Assembly: GCA_016288315.1 (NCBI GenBank)
Contig: JAEEYU010000046.1
Location: 1-49,758, forward strand
Reading direction: 5' to 3'
Length of the DNA: 49,758 bases
From: Clostridiaceae bacterium
GTDB taxonomy: Bacteria > Bacillota > Clostridia > Oscillospirales > Acutalibacteraceae
Numbering within the stretch: the stretch's first letter is position 1; each line of letters begins with the position of its first letter. A model generated the notes under the pieces. It searched no databases. It was not told where the DNA came from and saw nothing but the letters and a program-made list of their open reading frames with translations. A program made the position numbers and the translations under genes. Shown piece after piece: positions 3,351 to 12,651 of this stretch.

Positions 3351-4700
3351 ATGCTTAAATTCTATCTTGTTACCGACACACACCTCTGGAGCGTGCGCAG
3401 AATGGGTCCCAGCGGTCATATCGACCAGACCTGCACCGATGAATCCGAGGCGATAATAGATTCGGCGTTTGATATCCTTGCCGCAAAAGAGGATTCCGAC
3501 ATCATCCTGATTGCCGGCGACCTTACCAAAAGCGGCGAGCGCCCCAACCACGAAGAGATGGTCAAAAAGCTTTACGCCCTCAAAGAAAAGGGCAAAAAAG
3601 TCTATGTCATAACCGCAACCCACGACTACGGCCTTCGCGGCGTTGACGATGACGGCAACACCATCGGCGACGACGACGGCAGCGTCGTGCGCAGAGAAGA
3701 ACTGCGTGAAATGTATAAGGATTTCGGCTTCAGCGAGGCAATAGCGGAAGATAAACGCTCAATGAGCTATGTCGTTCAGCTCGCTGACGGCTACCGCCTT
3801 CTCTGCCTCAATGATGACGGCAACGGCAGAAGCTTCTGCGGCTATTATGCCGAAACAATGAAGTGGATAAAAGAGCAGCTTGCAAAGGCAAAGCAGGACG
3901 GTCAGTTCATTTTCGCAATGACTCATCATCCCGTTCTGCCTCCGTTCCCCGCCTATCCTCTCGTCAGTCAGAGAGATATGCTCGGCGAGTATGAAAAAAC
4001 ATCCGCAGAGCTTGCGGATGCAGGTCTCAGATATATTTTCACGGGTCACACCCACTGCCAGAATATTGACAGCATAGTCACACCCAGGGGCAACCGCCTC
4101 TATGATATAAATACGGGTGCGCTGTGCGGCTATCCCGCTCCCATACGCAGCGTTGTCATTGATGACAAAGCCGTGAATATCACCACCGAGCACGTCGAAG
4201 ATTTCGACTGGGATAAAGGCGGGCTTGATGCGGCGACATTTATGAAAAACCGCTTCAATCAGCTTCTCGTCGGCATTTTTGACTCTATGGAAAAAGATTT
4301 TGATGACTTCTGCGGCTATGCAGGCGGCTTCAGCGTTGAGCGCAGCTCCATCGAAAAATTCAAAATGCCGATTATGAAAATCGGCAAATTCATAAACCAT
4401 CTTACATTTAAAAAGCTCGGCAGAATGTTCTTTATAAGCAGCAGCATAGATTTCAGCATTGAGAACGTGCTTGTCAAGGATTTCCTCATTGAGGCAATCA
4501 ACAACATCTGGGCGGGCAACGAGATTTACGGCAGAACAACTCCCTACGGCAAAGCGATGTATGCCTTCGGTAAAAGACTCAATCCCGTGGCAAAGCCCTT
4601 CCTCAAAAAAATCGGAGTCAACGACCTTGCCGATTTCATTATGAGTCTTCTTTATGATGAAACTCCCGACACCGATGCCGTGCTCCCGTTCGAGGGCTGA
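3351..4700 (+). CDS. calcineurin-like metallophosphoesterase
   Basis: 449 residues with the order of motifs of the PF00149 fold: TDTHLW (D9, H11), AGDLTKSGERPNHEE (D57), a THHP segment near the middle and GHTH later on. The third motif reads ATHD (residues 89-92) instead of the usual GNHD, so a metal-ligand Asn is replaced by Thr. No signal peptide is visible, suggesting a cytoplasmic protein. About 150 extra C-terminal residues follow the catalytic fold. GGGAG precedes the ATG. It follows iolDE after a hairpin, but the substrate is unknown. Its end overlaps the convergent lipoprotein gene by 49 bases. Confidence 0.82.
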   Translation: MLKFYLVTDTHLWSVRRMGPSGHIDQTCTDESEAIIDSAFDILAAKEDSDIILIAGDLTKSGERPNHEEMVKKLYALKEKGKKVYVITATHDYGLRGVDDDGNTIGDDDGSVVRREELREMYKDFGFSEAIAEDKRSMSYVVQLADGYRLLCLNDDGNGRSFCGYYAETMKWIKEQLAKAKQDGQFIFAMTHHPVLPPFPAYPLVSQRDMLGEYEKTSAELADAGLRYIFTGHTHCQNIDSIVTPRGNRLYDINTGALCGYPAPIRSVVIDDKAVNITTEHVEDFDWDKGGLDAATFMKNRFNQLLVGIFDSMEKDFDDFCGYAGGFSVERSSIEKFKMPIMKIGKFINHLTFKKLGRMFFISSSIDFSIENVLVKDFLIEAINNIWAGNEIYGRTTPYGKAMYAFGKRLNPVAKPFLKKIGVNDLADFIMSLLYDETPDTDAVLPFEG

Positions 4701-5425
4701 TTAAAAACCTCTTCAACCGGAATTTCAACTTTAAGCGTGCCGAGCATTATCGGAGCGGCGTCGCCCGGGGCAAAAAGAATACAAAGCGCCTCGTCCGTTA
4801 CATACCACTCAAAGGCGTTACTGTCAATCAGTGCGAACGCATCCTCAAGCGAGATGTCTCCGGTTCCTTTTTCTTTTCCGAGTGCTGAAAGTTGTTTTTC
4901 CGTCTGCTCAGATAATTTCTCTCGGAATCTGTCACCGTCGGCGGCTATGTCGTAAACGCTGACGGTGTTTCCCGTTTTAAGCGAAAACGTCATTCCCTTT
5001 GTCTCCTCCGTGTCACGCACGGCGCACGCCTCGTGGCGGTAGAGAGATATTTCAAAACTTATTATTTCATCGTCGCAGCGGGTCTTTTCAAAAGATTCCG
5101 AATATGACGCTCCGCTCACATACTGCGCCCCGCGCGCAATGTATTCTTCATACTCAGCGGCATAGTCAAACTCCGGTTCGGCAATTTTCCGCACCTCGTC
5201 ATAAACAGCTGCGTTGATTTTTTTCGCAGCGTCTTTATTTCCCGGTATTTTTATTTCCGGGTAGTAAACCTCATAAGTGTAAACCGCCGTCGAACCGCCC
5301 GCTCTGATTGCGCCCGAAACGCTTTTGTCCTTTATTTCCACACCCTGCGCCGCGCGTGAGCAGGATGATAAAACAAGGGCGGCGGAAAATACGGCTGCAA
5401 ATATTTTTATTACAGATTGTTTCAT
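4652..5425 (-). CDS. lipoprotein with DUF4163/DUF3298-like (RsiV/PdaC-type) domain
   Basis: 257 residues. A signal peptide with lipobox LVLSSC puts the lipidated Cys at residue 22, so the mature protein is membrane-anchored outside. The rest resembles the DUF4163-DUF3298 pair found in RsiV anti-sigma factors and the PdaC deacetylase: a YEVYYPEIKIPGN strand region, then FSLKTGNTVSVYDIAADGDRF and a terminal beta region. No enzyme domain is attached. The start at 5425 follows GGAGG, and an in-frame upstream ATG at 5536 has no support. It has a good promoter (5450-5478). Domain naming is from memory of the family. Confidence 0.75.
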   Translation of the reverse strand: MKQSVIKIFAAVFSAALVLSSCSRAAQGVEIKDKSVSGAIRAGGSTAVYTYEVYYPEIKIPGNKDAAKKINAAVYDEVRKIAEPEFDYAAEYEEYIARGAQYVSGASYSESFEKTRCDDEIISFEISLYRHEACAVRDTEETKGMTFSLKTGNTVSVYDIAADGDRFREKLSEQTEKQLSALGKEKGTGDISLEDAFALIDSNAFEWYVTDEALCILFAPGDAAPIMLGTLKVEIPVEEVFNQPSNGSTASVSGVSS

Positions 5426-5449
5426 TTCAATTCCTCCGAACGCAACTTT

Positions 5450-5478
5450 ATAATAGCAGAAAAATATAATTAAAGCAA
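5450..5478 (-). promoter_or_regulatory. promoter for the DUF3298-like lipoprotein gene
   Basis: On the minus strand TTGCTT (5473-5478) and TATTAT (5450-5455) are separated by 17 bases, about 25 bases upstream of the GGAGG and ATG of the lipoprotein gene. The 70-base divergent gap must also hold the plus-strand promoter; a TATAAT is seen at 5465-5470 with no clear -35 box. Confidence 0.55.
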
Positions 5479-5495
5479 TAAAGAAAGGCAGAACA

Positions 5496-6638
5496 GTGAA
5501 ATCTTCAAATACAATCAGATTCAACGAAAACGGCAAACTTGTGATTATGCAGGTGTCCGACCCGCAGGATATGGTCCATGTGCGCCCCGCAATGGTTAAA
5601 ATGCTTGACGCCGCCTACGACAGCGTAAAGCCCGATTTAGTCCTCTTCACGGGCGACAATATTCTCGGCAACCACCTCCTTGATGCCCGCATCGGCAACC
5701 GCAAGGTGGCGGAGGGCTGGCAGGCGGAATATGAAAGAATGGAGCTGTCCCTTGCCCACATCCTCGCTCCGCTCGAAAACAGAGGCATTCCGTTTGCCAT
5801 GATTTACGGCAACCACGACGATATGAACGGCATAACAAAACAGGAGCAGATTGAAATCTACAGGCAATACAGAATGTGCCTGCCCATGAATACCGACAAT
5901 GTCAGCGTTGACTGCGACACCTATAACATCCCCGTTCTCTCTCACGACGGCGAAGAAGCCCTTTTCAATATCTGGATGCTCGACAGTGCGTGGACAGATA
6001 AGGTCCAGGGCAGGGGCTTCGCCGAAATAAAAGAGGAAACAGTTGACTGGTATAACAAAACGCAGAAGGAGCTCGAAACACAATACGGCAAAAAACTCCC
6101 GTCGCTTATGTTCCTTCATATTCCTCTGCCCGTCCAAAGTGAGCTCGTTGAAACCTGCAAAAAAACAGATGCGGGCGCAGTCCGCTTCAAAGACGGAACT
6201 TATATGCGTTTAATACCCGGCAGGGCGCAGGGGGCTCTCGGCGAGCCGCTCAGTCTCTGCACAACCGACAACGGTCTTTTTGAGTGCGTAAAGGCAAACG
6301 GCGACGTTATGGCAATAGTCAGCGGTCACGACCATTCCAACTGCTTTGAAGGCGAGGTTGACGGCGTTAAAATCATCCAGACGTCAGCCGCCTCCTTCCG
6401 CTGCTACGGCAGCAATCAGAGGGGAGTGCGCGTCTTCATCCTTGATGAGAACAAGCCCGGCGAGTTTGAAACATATATGCTTCACTACGAAGACCTCTGC
6501 GGCACGTCCCCGAAGGCAAAGCTCAGATATGTCTGGGATGCTGATGACAGAATCCCGCAAAAATGCGCCCTGATTGCAGGCACCGCCGCTGTCGCTTTCT
6601 CCGCTGCCGGACTTATCGCAAAGGCGCTTAAAAAATAA
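5496..6638 (+). CDS. calcineurin-like metallophosphoesterase with C-terminal hydrophobic segment
   Basis: 380 residues, starting with GTG after AAAGAAAGG. PF00149 motifs are seen in order: VSDPQDM (D22), FTGDN (D54), YGNHDD (N107-H108-D109), a LHIPLP segment and VSGHDHSN. The first motif has Gln (Q24) where the D-x-H ligand His is expected. The last 25 residues (ALIAGTAAVAFSAAGLIAKALKK region) form one hydrophobic stretch ending in lysines, so the protein may be held at the membrane by its tail. A clear terminator follows. It differs clearly in sequence from the phosphoesterase at 3351. Substrate unknown. Confidence 0.8.
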   Translation: MKSSNTIRFNENGKLVIMQVSDPQDMVHVRPAMVKMLDAAYDSVKPDLVLFTGDNILGNHLLDARIGNRKVAEGWQAEYERMELSLAHILAPLENRGIPFAMIYGNHDDMNGITKQEQIEIYRQYRMCLPMNTDNVSVDCDTYNIPVLSHDGEEALFNIWMLDSAWTDKVQGRGFAEIKEETVDWYNKTQKELETQYGKKLPSLMFLHIPLPVQSELVETCKKTDAGAVRFKDGTYMRLIPGRAQGALGEPLSLCTTDNGLFECVKANGDVMAIVSGHDHSNCFEGEVDGVKIIQTSAASFRCYGSNQRGVRVFILDENKPGEFETYMLHYEDLCGTSPKAKLRYVWDADDRIPQKCALIAGTAAVAFSAAGLIAKALKK

Positions 6639-7474: not shown

Positions 7475-7503
7475 TTGACATTTTTCTATATATATAGTAA
7501 TAT
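7475..7503 (+). promoter_or_regulatory. promoter for the sigma-like/WG-repeat gene
   Basis: TTGACA (7475-7480) and TAATAT (7498-7503) with a 17-base AT-rich spacer. This is a near-consensus housekeeping promoter, leaving a leader of roughly 60 bases before the ATG at 7572. A palindrome lies upstream at 7440-7454. Confidence 0.75.
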
Positions 7504-7571: not shown

Positions 7572-9716
7572 ATGTTAAATGAAAACCTTGTTTCGTATGT
7601 GTTGGACGCTCAGCAGGGCAACGAAGACGCGTTTGCGAAGCTGTATTCCCGCACTCTTAAAAATTCCTATTACCTCTGCCTCAAGCTCACAGCAGACAAT
7701 GAGCGTGCGGAAGAAGTCCTCAAAAAAGGCTACGCCGCCGCATTCTGCAGTATAGGCAAACTCAAAAGGCCGGAGGCGTTTGAATCCTGGCTCAAACAGA
7801 AGATGGCGGCCGTTTACAAATCAACAATGAATTTCTCTTTCGGCGATGTTGACGGAGATGCGGAGTCAACCGCTTCGGAGTTTCTTCCTGCGTCGGTGCT
7901 TGATGACGATTCACTCTGCCGCAGGGTTGAAGATTATGTCGCATATCTTCCCGCAGAGCAGCGCACCGTGGCAGTCCTTTACTACTGCGTTGGCATGCCG
8001 GTTGACTTTATTGCAAAATTCTTAAATGTTTCCCCCAGCACCGTCGATTACCTTCTTTCGAAGGCAAAAGAAGGTATTGCAGAGCCCCTCAATCTCGGTG
8101 ATGTCACCCTCTCCGAAGACACTCTCCCCGTTCTCACCAAGATTTTTATGCGCTCCTGCGCAGATGTCAAAATCGACAACGACCTTGTCAGACAGGCGTT
8201 CATTTTCGCCATAGACCGCTTCCACTCAAACGAGAATCCGCTTGATGAAGTTACGGTTTACCCCGACTCACAGCCCGCCGAAAAGACGGCACCCGAGGCG
8301 CAGGCAGATGAAGAACCGTCAGAAGAGCCAGAAGCAGAGTCGGAGCAGGTTGAAGAGTCGTCAGAGCCCGTAACACAGATTATCGAAGACGGCGTAAAGC
8401 CCTCCGCGGCAATCACGGGCGCAGACCTTCTTAAAGAAATCAATCAGTCAATAAGCGAAATCACCGGCGACGGCGTTGCAAAAACAGAAGAGAACGACGA
8501 CCCCATCGGTGAAGGCATATACATTTCAAACCCCATCGACCTTGACGAAGCCGATGAACCCGCACAGCAGGAAATCCCTGTTGCGGAGAAAAAGCAGAGC
8601 AGTCAGGAGAAGAACAAAACAAAACTCTTCATCGTAATAGCTGCCATTCTTCTCATCCTCGTCATAGCCGCGGTAATCGGTATTGCAAGGCGTGGCAAAT
8701 CAGGAGGCGGCGAGCAGACAACGGCACCCGCCGAAACCGTTGCGGCGGCTGACACCGTCAAACAGGAGTGGCGCGAGGTTCAGGAATTCACAAAGTATTC
8801 CGCCATTGAATATTTCAATGAGACCTGCTGCAAAATCCAGGATGCCGAAACAGGCAAATGGGGTCTTATGAATTACAAGGGCGAGGTTGTAATAGCACCC
8901 CAGTATTACGCCTTTGAGCGCTGCTCATACGGCAGAGATTACAAAGAGCGCAACAGCTATCACTATGTTGTCCAGATAGAAGCGGGCGGCGACCAGTATG
9001 AGGTCAATATGTCCACGTTTGAGATAAGCTCCGTTCCGCACACAAGCCACCAGATTGAAGGCGACGAGCTCGACTCCAAAAAATACAGCGAACAGGACCG
9101 TTTCCACAACGGCTACGCGGCTGTCAGAGATGCCGAGTCCGGCAAATGGGGCTACATTTCGCAGGAGAGCGGCAAGCTCGTCATCGAATGCCTCTATGAA
9201 ACCGTCAACGACGGTCTCGAAAACAGCGAATACCAGAAGGTTGACTACTGCCTCGCAGTTGAAAACGGTATGGTAGCCGTCAAAAAGGGCGGCAAAATGG
9301 GTGTCATCGACCTCAACGGCACAACAGTCGTCGGCTTCGATTACGCAAAAATCCTTCAGGGTGACAACGGCGTTTACATCGCCCAGAAGAACAATAAATG
9401 GGGCGTCATCCTCGTAGGCAATGCGGTTGACACTTACGACGCCAACACGGCTGCTGTCAAACCCGTTTCCACAGACCTCGACGTCATCCTTCGCGACTAT
9501 GATGCAATCGACACCGAGTATGAGGCACTGCGCGACATCAACGTCAGAACCGAAATCGCCGCAACAGGTGATGAAACCCTTATGGGAACAATCACCGCGG
9601 GCGAAACCGTCAAGGCGGTTGCCACCGGCACGGCCGACAACGGCAGAACCTGGGTCTGCATCGAATATAACGGCGGCTACGGCTGGCTGAGCGCAGCATA
9701 CCTCGACGAGGTTTAA
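7572..9716 (+). CDS. membrane-anchored ECF-sigma-like protein with WG repeats and SH3-like domain
   Basis: 714 residues with an unusual order of parts. Residues 1-85 match ECF sigma region 2 (QQGNEDAFAKLYSR, then an AEEVL segment and FESWLKQKMAAVYKS). Residues 117-170 match region 4 (LPAEQRTVAVLYYCVG, IAKFLNVSPSTVDYLLSKA helix-turn-helix). Residues 235-345 are acidic, Pro/Glu-rich and probably disordered. One membrane segment lies at 352-372. Beyond it are WG repeats (GKWGLMNYKGEVVIAPQY at 428, GKWGYI at 524, GKMGVI at 574, NKWGVI at 608) and a bacterial SH3-like domain at 650-714 (INVRTE to YGWLSAAYL). It may read an outside signal and act on transcription, but whether the sigma part is active is unknown. 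AGGAAGTGG precedes the ATG. No terminator is seen before the T-box leader. Confidence 0.82.
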   Translation: MLNENLVSYVLDAQQGNEDAFAKLYSRTLKNSYYLCLKLTADNERAEEVLKKGYAAAFCSIGKLKRPEAFESWLKQKMAAVYKSTMNFSFGDVDGDAESTASEFLPASVLDDDSLCRRVEDYVAYLPAEQRTVAVLYYCVGMPVDFIAKFLNVSPSTVDYLLSKAKEGIAEPLNLGDVTLSEDTLPVLTKIFMRSCADVKIDNDLVRQAFIFAIDRFHSNENPLDEVTVYPDSQPAEKTAPEAQADEEPSEEPEAESEQVEESSEPVTQIIEDGVKPSAAITGADLLKEINQSISEITGDGVAKTEENDDPIGEGIYISNPIDLDEADEPAQQEIPVAEKKQSSQEKNKTKLFIVIAAILLILVIAAVIGIARRGKSGGGEQTTAPAETVAAADTVKQEWREVQEFTKYSAIEYFNETCCKIQDAETGKWGLMNYKGEVVIAPQYYAFERCSYGRDYKERNSYHYVVQIEAGGDQYEVNMSTFEISSVPHTSHQIEGDELDSKKYSEQDRFHNGYAAVRDAESGKWGYISQESGKLVIECLYETVNDGLENSEYQKVDYCLAVENGMVAVKKGGKMGVIDLNGTTVVGFDYAKILQGDNGVYIAQKNNKWGVILVGNAVDTYDANTAAVKPVSTDLDVILRDYDAIDTEYEALRDINVRTEIAATGDETLMGTITAGETVKAVATGTADNGRTWVCIEYNGGYGWLSAAYLDEV

Positions 9717-10014: not shown

Positions 10015-12651
10015 ATGCAATGGACAGGACTTAATGAATTAAGAGAAAAATACCTCGAATTTTTCGAGTCAAAAGGGCATCTCAGACTGCCCAGTTTCTC
10101 ACTTATTCCCCAGGGTGACAAAAGTCTCCTGCTTATAAACGCAGGCATGGCGCCCCTCAAAAAGTATTTCACGGGCGAACTCACCCCTCCGAGAAAAAGG
10201 GTTACCACCTGCCAGAAATGTATAAGAACACCCGACATCGAAAGGGTAGGCATCACCGCCCGCCACGGCACATATTTTGAGATGCTCGGCAACTTCTCGT
10301 TCGGCGATTACTTCAAACGCGAGGCAATTCCGTGGGCTTGGGAGTTCTTTACAAAGGTTCTCGAAATGCCCCCCGAAAAGCTTTATATCAGCGTCTATCT
10401 CGATGACGACGAGGCGTATGACATCTGGACAAAAGAAATCGGCGTATCACCCGACCACATGGTCCGCTTCGGCAAGGAAGACAATTTCTGGGAGCACGGA
10501 GCAGGTCCCTGCGGTCCCTGTTCCGAAATCTATTTCGACCGCGGCGAAAAATTCGGCTGCGGCAAACCCGACTGCAAGGTCGGCTGCGAATGCGACCGCT
10601 ATGTAGAGGTCTGGAACCTCGTTTTCACACAGTTCGAAAACGACGGCAACGGCAACTACACAAAGCTCAAAAACTGCAACATTGACACGGGTATGGGTCT
10701 TGAAAGACTTGCCTGCGTCATGCAGGGCGTTGACAACCTTTTCGAGGTTGACACCGTTGCGAATATTATGAAGCACATAATCGACATAGCAGGCGTCGAA
10801 TACCATAAAGACCCCAAAAGCGACATTTCCCTGCGCGTAATAACCGACCATATCAGAAGCACAACCTTTATGATAGGCGACGGCGTTATGCCTTCAAATG
10901 AGGGCAGGGGCTATGTTCTGCGCCGCCTTCTCAGAAGAGCGGCAAGGCACGGCAGACTTCTCGGCATCGACGGCACCTTCCTTTATAAAGTCTGCGAAAC
11001 GGTAATCAGAGAGAATGCAAACGCCTATCCCAACCTTGTCGAAAAGCACGACCTCATCGTCAAGGTTATAAAATCAGAGGAAGAAAGCTTCAACAAAACA
11101 ATAGATACCGGTCTTATTCAGCTCGAAAACGTTATTGCAAACAACACAAGCGGCGTCCTCAGCGGAGCGGATGCCTTCCGCCTGCAGGACACCTTCGGTT
11201 TCCCGATTGACCTCACAAAAGAGATTCTCGCAGAACGCTCAATGACCGTTGATGAAGAGGAATTCAACCGCATTTCCGCCGAGAGCAGAGCGGCGGCGCG
11301 CGCGGCAAGAAAAGATGCCGGCGCAGAGGCGTGGAAAGGCAAATCAGCACCCGTCTCCGACATAGCCGCCACCGACTTCAGAGGTTATGAATCCTTCGAA
11401 TGCGATTCCGAAATCAAAGCGGTTCTCGTTGACGGCGAAAGGGCGGATTTCGCATCCGCAGACAGCGACGCCGTCATTGTTCTCTCTTCAACTCCCTTCT
11501 ACGGTGAGAGCGGCGGTCAGGTCGGCGACACCGGTGTTATCAGAACAGCAAATGCCGTCTTTGAGGTCAGCGAAACGCTCAAAACTCCCGGCGGAGTTAT
11601 CCTCCACGCCGGAAGAATCAAAGAGGGCGAGAGTGTCAACATAGGCGAAAAAGCAACCGCTTCAATTGATGCGGACAGGCGCAGGGCAATAGCCCGCAAC
11701 CACACTGCGGCACACCTTCTCCAGGCGGCTCTTCGCGAAATTCTCGGCACACACGTCGAGCAGGCGGGTCAGCTCGTAAACGAGGACGAAGTCCGTTTCG
11801 ACTTTACCCACTTTTCTGCGCTTACAAGCGAAGAAATCAAAAAGGTAGAAAACCGCGTCAATGAGATAATTCTTTCCTCCCTCGATGTAACCGTCAGAGA
11901 AATGCCCATTGAAGAAGCCAAAAAAGCAGGCGCAATGGCGCTCTTCGGCGAAAAATACGGCGATGTCGTCAGAGTCGTCAAGGCAGGGGAGTTCTCAACC
12001 GAGCTCTGCGGCGGCACTCACGTTTCCTCAACAGGTAACCTCGGTTTGTTCAAGATTATTTCCGAAACCTCCGTCGCGGCAGGCGTCCGCCGTATTCAGG
12101 GCGTAACCGGCTTCGGAGTCCTCGGCTTCATCGAAGATAACCTCTCAACAATCAGGAACGTAGCCGCTTCGCTCAAAACGGCAAACCTTTCCGATATAGA
12201 AAACAGAGCCCAGGCGGTTATGGCGGAATCAAAGGCAAAAGATAAAGAGATAGCCGACCTGCGCGCCGAGCTTTCATCGCTCAAAACAGGAGATCTGGGC
12301 AGCAACGCCGTTGATGTCAACGGAGTCCGCCTTATCAGCGCCTGTGTTGACGGTGTTCGTCCCGACGAGCTTCGCTCAATGTGCGACAAATTCAAAGAAG
12401 AGCCCCTTTGCGTTGCCGTCATCTCCTGCATAAACGCAGAAAAAACGGGTGCAAACTTCGCCTGCGCCTGCGGAGCACAGGCAGTCGCAAAAGGCGCCCA
12501 CGCCGGCAATATCGTGCGCGAGGTCGCAAAACTTGCAGGCGGTTCCGGCGGCGGAAAGCCCGACAGCGCAATGGCGGGCACAAAGAACGTTGACGGTGTT
12601 TCTTCCGCAATGCAGGCGGTCAAGGGCATCGTTGAAGGCATGATTAAATAA
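10015..12651 (+). CDS. alaS: alanyl-tRNA synthetase
   Basis: 878 residues, normal bacterial AlaRS length. It charges tRNA-Ala in the cytoplasm. Seen in order: class II aminoacylation core (FFESKGHLRLPS, TCQKCIRTPDIERVG, GNFSFGDYFKREA), a Cys-rich insert (CGKPDCKVGCECDRY) common in Firmicute AlaRS, tRNA-binding helices, the editing domain (NHTAAHLLQAAL, then CGGTHVSSTG) that clears Ser and Gly mischarging, a coiled-coil linker, and the C-Ala domain ending in a GGSGGGKPDSAMAG segment. The start at 10015 follows AAAGGAGCTG. An open frame runs upstream into the T-box leader and is not coding. It heads a seven-gene run to ispF. Confidence 0.97.
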   Translation: MQWTGLNELREKYLEFFESKGHLRLPSFSLIPQGDKSLLLINAGMAPLKKYFTGELTPPRKRVTTCQKCIRTPDIERVGITARHGTYFEMLGNFSFGDYFKREAIPWAWEFFTKVLEMPPEKLYISVYLDDDEAYDIWTKEIGVSPDHMVRFGKEDNFWEHGAGPCGPCSEIYFDRGEKFGCGKPDCKVGCECDRYVEVWNLVFTQFENDGNGNYTKLKNCNIDTGMGLERLACVMQGVDNLFEVDTVANIMKHIIDIAGVEYHKDPKSDISLRVITDHIRSTTFMIGDGVMPSNEGRGYVLRRLLRRAARHGRLLGIDGTFLYKVCETVIRENANAYPNLVEKHDLIVKVIKSEEESFNKTIDTGLIQLENVIANNTSGVLSGADAFRLQDTFGFPIDLTKEILAERSMTVDEEEFNRISAESRAAARAARKDAGAEAWKGKSAPVSDIAATDFRGYESFECDSEIKAVLVDGERADFASADSDAVIVLSSTPFYGESGGQVGDTGVIRTANAVFEVSETLKTPGGVILHAGRIKEGESVNIGEKATASIDADRRRAIARNHTAAHLLQAALREILGTHVEQAGQLVNEDEVRFDFTHFSALTSEEIKKVENRVNEIILSSLDVTVREMPIEEAKKAGAMALFGEKYGDVVRVVKAGEFSTELCGGTHVSSTGNLGLFKIISETSVAAGVRRIQGVTGFGVLGFIEDNLSTIRNVAASLKTANLSDIENRAQAVMAESKAKDKEIADLRAELSSLKTGDLGSNAVDVNGVRLISACVDGVRPDELRSMCDKFKEEPLCVAVISCINAEKTGANFACACGAQAVAKGAHAGNIVREVAKLAGGSGGGKPDSAMAGTKNVDGVSSAMQAVKGIVEGMIK

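Follow-up and report, generated by a model that had tools for sequence, protein, structure and literature searches.

Domain organization of a membrane protein with a sigma-like part

The window analysed here, a stretch of 49,758 nucleotides from a Clostridiaceae bacterium (GenBank assembly GCA_016288315.1, contig JAEEYU010000046.1), contains at positions 7572–9716 of the forward strand a single open reading frame (ORF) encoding a protein of 714 residues. From its N-terminus the protein comprises a sigma2-like domain (residues 1–95, positions 7572–7856), a sigma2–sigma4 linker with a sigma4-like helix-turn-helix (residues 96–175, 7857–8096, assigned by Pfam and alignment), two extra helices (residues 187–198 and 203–221, 8130–8234), a weakly conserved acidic linker (residues 222–345, 8235–8606), a single transmembrane helix (residues 353–371, 8628–8684, hydropathy 3.43), a presumably exported WG-repeat domain (residues 406–625, 8787–9446) and an SH3_3 (SH3b) domain (residues 657–712, 9540–9707), all on the forward strand.

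This order of domains had been proposed in a first-pass annotation, and is borne out by Pfam, hydropathy and structure prediction. The acidic linker is a family trait (mean net charge −20.8, range −68 to −1, for the aligned block 223–345 in 28 orthologues), and hydropathy gave one clear membrane helix where residues 352–372 had been proposed. WG_beta_rep (E 1.5e-16, 60.5 bits, cut-off 25.6) and SH3_3 (E 8.5e-7, 29.5 bits, cut-off 27) both exceeded their curated cut-offs. The extracytoplasmic function (ECF) sigma factor patterns of the annotation held for region 4 (Sigma70_r4_2, E 1e-7, above cut-off) and were weaker than claimed for region 2 (Sigma70_r2, E 0.033, under cut-off); the NCBIfam sigma70-ECF model scored 42.7 bits (cut-off 42.9). 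At E ≤ 0.1, the 28 orthologues matched WG (28), Sigma70_r4_2 (28), SH3_3 (26) and Sigma70_r2 (4). The sigma2 and sigma4 folds are present and sigma3 is absent. The 13 Pfam matches of the window protein (up to E 1) include no zinc-finger domain, and no Pfam match to a response-regulator receiver domain was found in it.

An AlphaFold2 model of residues 1–225 was obtained with high confidence (predicted local distance difference test score, pLDDT, 92.3; predicted template modelling score, pTM, 0.89). Its fold is similar to SigW and also matches the sigma-like domain of PhyR, and the extra helices are predicted in the same globule. For residues 400–714 (pLDDT 85, pTM 0.67), structure comparison of the WG domain gave weak beta-propeller-like matches at best, and Foldseek matched the SH3b domain to 5leo, a lysostaphin SH3b-peptidoglycan complex (rank 48, E 2.4e-3, root-mean-square deviation 3.0, 70 columns).

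The annotation had also regarded one chain in place of two as unusual, but this layout is already published. In the available part of PMC8999054, ECF48, ECF52 (SCO4117) and ECF53 of Actinobacteria are described as sigma2–sigma4, a membrane helix and an outside part in one chain; these groups carry a zinc-finger domain, and proteolysis is expected to activate them as sigma factors. From Pseudomonas putida, the review describes IutY (ECF243), in which an ECF and a membrane-bound anti-sigma part form one chain; this fusion gives an active sigma factor after proteolysis. The window protein shares the one-chain layout of ECF48/52/53, but no zinc finger was found in it and its sigma contacts are mostly lost; unlike IutY, its family is without most of the residues needed for an active sigma factor. 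Because these systems are published and the layout recurs in the order, the fusion belongs to a known kind. What stands out in this family is the stripped sigma part.

Replacement of RNA polymerase and promoter contacts

To compare contact residues, 42 distinct orthologues were aligned with SigW, AlgU and three sets of ECFs: 17 fused ones from the same genus and, from the order, 15 that are fused and 10 that stand alone. The same-genus set was chosen from matches to the window protein, and the order-level set by likeness to L095 (an ECF-WG fusion described below), which favours canonical residues in it. L050 (after the alignment had been seen), L051–L053, L095, L096, L122 and L127 were kept apart from the counts; L036, L087, L099 and L116 (no start codon found) were dropped, as were orthologues with no difference in residues 1–170. 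We examined two region 2.2 residues, Gln and Asp, which we take to face the beta' coiled-coil of RNA polymerase (RNAP). Promoter contacts, with their residue numbers, follow Mycobacterium tuberculosis sigmaH, which is described in the available part of PMC6411747 as contacting the −10 element via Trp81, Ile85 and Asn88 and the −35 element via region 4.2.

Most of these residues are replaced in nearly all orthologues. The region 2.2 Gln was found in 1/42 orthologues, 17/17 genus fusions, 14/15 order fusions and 10/10 standalone order ECFs; in the same sequence of sets, the counts were 9/42, 17/17, 14/15 and 10/10 for the region 2.2 Asp, 5/42, 14/17, 14/15 and 8/10 for Ile85, 1/42, 15/17, 13/15 and 9/10 for Asn88, 0/42, 17/17, 14/15 and 9/10 for Lys181 (0/42 also with Arg counted), and 0/42, 17/17, 15/15 and 10/10 for Arg183. 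The residue next to the region 2.2 Asp is Lys in 32/42 orthologues, and Ser182 is retained in 8/42. In the recognition helix, the family has Asn, Asp, Glu or Thr for the Lys and a hydrophobic residue for Arg183. A four-residue deletion past region 2.4 is common to all 42 orthologues and absent from the other sets of the full alignment; the standalone L096 also has a four-residue gap in a smaller alignment. Taken singly, these losses prove little; it is the combined losses in the alignment that carry weight. Decay or sequencing error was rejected, as the changes are common to 42 distinct sequences with open frames under strong selection; one copy (G023, loci L026/L072) is broken into two frames.

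The Gln, Lys and Arg are all present in 17/18 of the remaining membrane-fused sigma proteins examined in this genus. The exception, L050 (G012 C5:300-3300, 891 residues in the segment analysed), is a membrane-fused sigma-like protein in which regions 2.2 and 4.2 are degenerate, a loss that seems independent of the one in the family.

Some features run the other way. Trp81 is retained in 37/42 orthologues, as are basic residues at 186 (Lys/Arg, 32/42) and 188 (Arg/Lys, 37/42), so that altered DNA binding may persist. Arg186, important in sigmaH, is uninformative because 0/17 intact genus fusions keep it. Position 181 is Met in sigmaH, where an Ala change raised activity (PMC6411747, available part), so the argument from Lys181 draws on comparison alone. 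All three standalone ECFs examined in the genus have Ser for the region 2.2 Gln and Ala at 88; these three keep the basic residues at 181 and 183.

The promoter of the window gene resembles the sigmaA type (7475–7503, forward strand; −35 TTGACA at 7475–7480, −10 TAATAT at 7498–7503, 17-bp spacer). In the window and 36 of the 41 orthologue loci (short or partial loci L068, L087 and L090–L092 left out), the upstream boxes matched TTGACA/TATAAT at 10 or more of 12 positions in 37/37 regions and at 11 or more in 31/37; single-base shuffles reached these scores in 11% and 0.4%. The spacer was 17 bp in 36 of the 37 regions, and 35 had an exact TTGACA. ECF genes usually have autoregulated promoters. 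Judged by sequence, the orthologue promoters look like the sigmaA type and not this usual ECF type. As a counterpoint, such boxes are not exclusive to the family, because 4/17 intact fusions score at least 10 (2/17 at least 11).

Several intact fused ECFs (G018 C3, C5 and C12; G013 C51; G012 C7) have the ECF-like signal TAGACC-N16-CGTC roughly 40–430 bp upstream. Sites of the form TAGACC(AA)-N16-CGTC lie at G018 C3:16409, C5:81397 and C12:411187, G013 C51:37794 and G012 C7:97055, with nine more in G009 (L171–L190). The signal also precedes other genes, many of them judged by eye to be exported or membrane proteins or to have signal-peptide-like starts, and occurred 38 times in 8 genomes vs 19 for the reversed control. 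This suggests a candidate promoter of an autoregulated envelope regulon of membrane-fused ECFs.

These data bear on the possibility that the window protein is a true membrane-tethered ECF sigma factor that recognises unusual promoters and is released through intramembrane proteolysis, as IutY is and as has been proposed for ECF52. Its layout equals that of the published fused ECFs (PMC8999054, available part), some intact fusions of the genus stand behind the ECF-like promoter, L095 has canonical sigma residues, and Trp81 and some region 4.2 basic residues are kept. Against this, most RNAP, −10 and −35 contact residues are replaced family-wide, the promoter is sigmaA-like and no ECF-type signal was noticed upstream. 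A co-changed RNAP is unlikely, because sigma factors with canonical residues persist in this genus. The released sigma factor that the annotation had offered as its first option was thus rejected as the leading explanation on contact loss and promoter type, and we consider it unlikely.

Relatives, conservation and genomic context

Intact fused ECFs are found in 29/45 genomes of the genus (9 of the 15 good ones; E ≤ 1e-22 to a representative), and the genome of the window has two further ECF fusions. In the order, 15 fused frames from 15 genomes all have a hydrophobic helix within residues 241–340; being the best matches among 295 genomes, they give no frequency. These fusions of an ECF, a membrane helix and an exported domain share the N-terminal layout of the window protein, with the helix mostly near 240–340, and are its neighbours in the tree; they differ in keeping their sigma contacts and in the outside domains identified there, CAP or LRR_5. 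L003 and L034, and L035 and L049, are intact fused ECFs with CAP or BspA-type leucine-rich repeat domains. The outside module of fused ECFs seems to have been exchanged. The intact fusions perhaps correspond to ECF262, a group listed in table 2 of PMC8999054 with a Ruminococcus albus protein as its example.

A close counterpart by layout is L095 (1143–3347), an ECF fusion of 735 residues with a membrane helix and WG repeats, from the Clostridiaceae metagenome-assembled genome AS10tlH2TH_150. Its outside part is 43–44% identical to that of the window protein over ~230 residues, but its sigma residues are canonical and it has no SH3_3 match at E ≤ 0.01; among 8 genomes of its taxonomic family, only its own matched. 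In a tree of 68 rows with the contact columns removed, the 16 rows of the orthologue family formed one clade (support 100, stem 0.85), and L095 lay near it (branch 0.3, open fork support 93), beside long-branched rows. The tree was built by a quick method and sampled 16 of the 42 orthologues, and the joining of long branches (L050, L096 and standalone rows) near the family is unsure. L095 likely shows what the ancestor looked like, or else was acquired by transfer.

The family is fixed at several positions where L095 and most intact fusions differ from it, among them basic residues at 30, 51 and 149, aromatic residues at 82 and 88 and a hydrophobic residue at 161; the family's basic positions 23, 63, 65, 66 and 75 are already basic in L095. 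The mean charge of sigma2 is +2.7 (−1 to 5) in the orthologues vs −0.6 (−4 to 3) in 32 intact fusions.

Among the parts compared in 28 orthologues, sigma2 had the highest mean pairwise identity (59%), followed by WG (55%), sigma4 (48%), the extra helices (40%) and SH3 (40%), the membrane helix (34%) and linker 223–345 (22%). In close relatives (five pairs, four sequences), the ratio of nonsynonymous to synonymous substitution rates (omega) was 0.03–0.06 for sigma2, 0.10–0.26 for the linker and 0.01–0.03 for WG, values that are approximate as synonymous divergence is about 1 or above. The lower omega of WG than of sigma2 in these pairs, together with its 55% identity and the existence in the genus of a sigma-less paralogue with a membrane helix, WG and SH3 domains, would fit a mainly structural envelope protein, in which WG-SH3b does the work and the sigma fold is an anchor or oligomerisation domain. 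Against such a role stand the 59% identity of sigma2 and a wider pair with L008, in which nonsynonymous divergence was 0.08 for sigma2 vs 0.36 for WG. Since an anchor alone would not require such conservation of sigma2, a mere anchor is disfavoured, and we regard the structural explanation as very unlikely.

The sigma-less paralogue occurs at L145–L148 and L150, and in the genome of the window at L002 (C26), where it is truncated at the contig start, with its N-terminus outside the contig, and is followed by a coaD-like ORF (by eye). A search with the outside domain of 391 genomes of the class (E ≤ 1e-12) found matches in the own genome and five others; in those five (L132–L136) nothing like the sigma part appeared at a cut-off of E ≤ 1e-3.

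The gene is present (matches at E ≤ 1e-43) in 42/45 genomes (species) of this uncultured genus of Oscillospiraceae/Clostridia, which the descriptions of related records place mostly in the gut of ruminants and other herbivores. The three genomes with no match (G010, G018, G026) are 63–86% complete. In a draw of 200 genomes from the taxonomic family, in each of which at most 5 candidates were scored, 3 matched at E ≤ 1e-20, all from the own genus.

Downstream of the window gene lies alaS (10015–12651, forward strand), the cluster of which is present in 35/43 neighbourhoods compared; of the other 8, seven stop at a contig end and one is L095. The genes upstream differ between neighbourhoods. Apart from alaS and the genes that follow it nothing recurs, and no conserved partner gene adjoins in the 43 neighbourhoods. 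An Rfam scan of the window gave two tRNAs and nothing else. A lipoprotein-like ORF on the reverse strand (4652–5536) matches DUF3298 (1.3e-7) and, below cut-off, PdaC (4.5e-5), which we take to be the outside domains of RsiV. The likeness to RsiV proposed in the annotation is thus backed by domain matches, but the gene cluster of this ORF occurs in 4/43 neighbourhoods, a count to be read with many neighbourhoods cut by contig ends.

The lack of an adjoining partner weighs against another possibility, that the protein is a membrane-bound sigma mimic which, in a PhyR-like partner switch, either titrates an anti-sigma factor or associates with the intact fused ECFs. Of the anti-sigma families, zf-HC2 was searched and others were not; it was over cut-off in 12/45 genomes, at E ≤ 0.01 in 13/45 (3/15 good genomes), and was not found in the own genome, which is 78% complete. 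The search misses some cases, being positive in 5/14 control genomes. The intact fused ECFs, in 29/45 genomes, also fall short of the 42/45 with the pseudo-sigma gene. Neither a zinc-finger anti-sigma factor nor, at E ≤ 1e-22, the intact fused ECFs are supported as an obligate partner. We hold this kind of partner switching to be improbable.

A putative transmembrane pseudo-sigma adapter

The alternative that fits best is the second option of the annotation, a sigma-derived adapter. What the computations show is the domain architecture, the fold as predicted, the replacement of contact residues, purifying selection, the type of promoter and the spread through the genus. Because the contacts are mostly lost and the protein is membrane-held, under a housekeeping-type promoter and strongly conserved, the sigma fold is now probably a protein-binding module. 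We therefore lean towards a single-pass membrane protein whose cytoplasmic pseudo-sigma part acts as a transmembrane adapter. The retained residues, the lower omega of WG and the promoters of some intact fusions described above weigh against this, as does the finding of no partner among the adjoining genes, zf-HC2 proteins and intact fused ECFs. The compact arrangement of the sigma part with its extra helices is a prediction, and we infer the orientation, the cell-wall ligand, the protein partner and the direction of signalling.

In the proposed course of events, the ancestor was most likely an ECF fused to a membrane helix and WG repeats whose sigma domain worked, of the kind still found in L095. 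Prior to the radiation of the genus, a descendant would have lost contact with the beta' coiled-coil of RNAP and with both promoter elements (−10 and −35) and kept the sigma2/sigma4 fold. Expressed from a housekeeping-type promoter, the single-pass protein would sense or hold an envelope ligand through its outside WG-SH3b part, with SH3b suggesting the cell wall, and its inside sigma fold would bind another protein, or else the face of the membrane, in place of RNAP and promoter DNA.

The nearest working analogy is the partner switch of PhyR, a cytoplasmic protein with a receiver domain, whose sigma-like fold binds a protein. By alignment and model, the window family would likewise have a sigma-like fold without promoter contacts, but the window protein sits in the membrane, carries WG-SH3b and has no match to a receiver domain. 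Membership is not claimed, because no receiver domain and no anti-sigma partner were found. PhyR, of Alphaproteobacteria, is named in the available part of PMC8999054. Among the literature matches listed, no title or abstract opening described a protein like that of the window, most subscription journals lying outside the scope.

We see an even chance that these proteins form a genus-wide class of transmembrane pseudo-sigmas, in which the sigma fold, no longer tied to RNAP or promoters, serves an envelope-facing receptor or scaffold as its binding part in the cytoplasm. If so, sigma factors can be co-opted as adapters for signalling at the membrane. To our knowledge, PhyR is the only other conversion of a sigma factor to a non-sigma role, and it acts in the cytoplasm; a conserved version in the membrane would reveal a second way in which a transcription factor can give up one job and take on another. 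The family also calls for caution, as proteins that score as sigma-70 family members can lack most known sigma contacts. The intact and stripped membrane-fused sigmas, many of them in the same genomes, offer a natural comparison.
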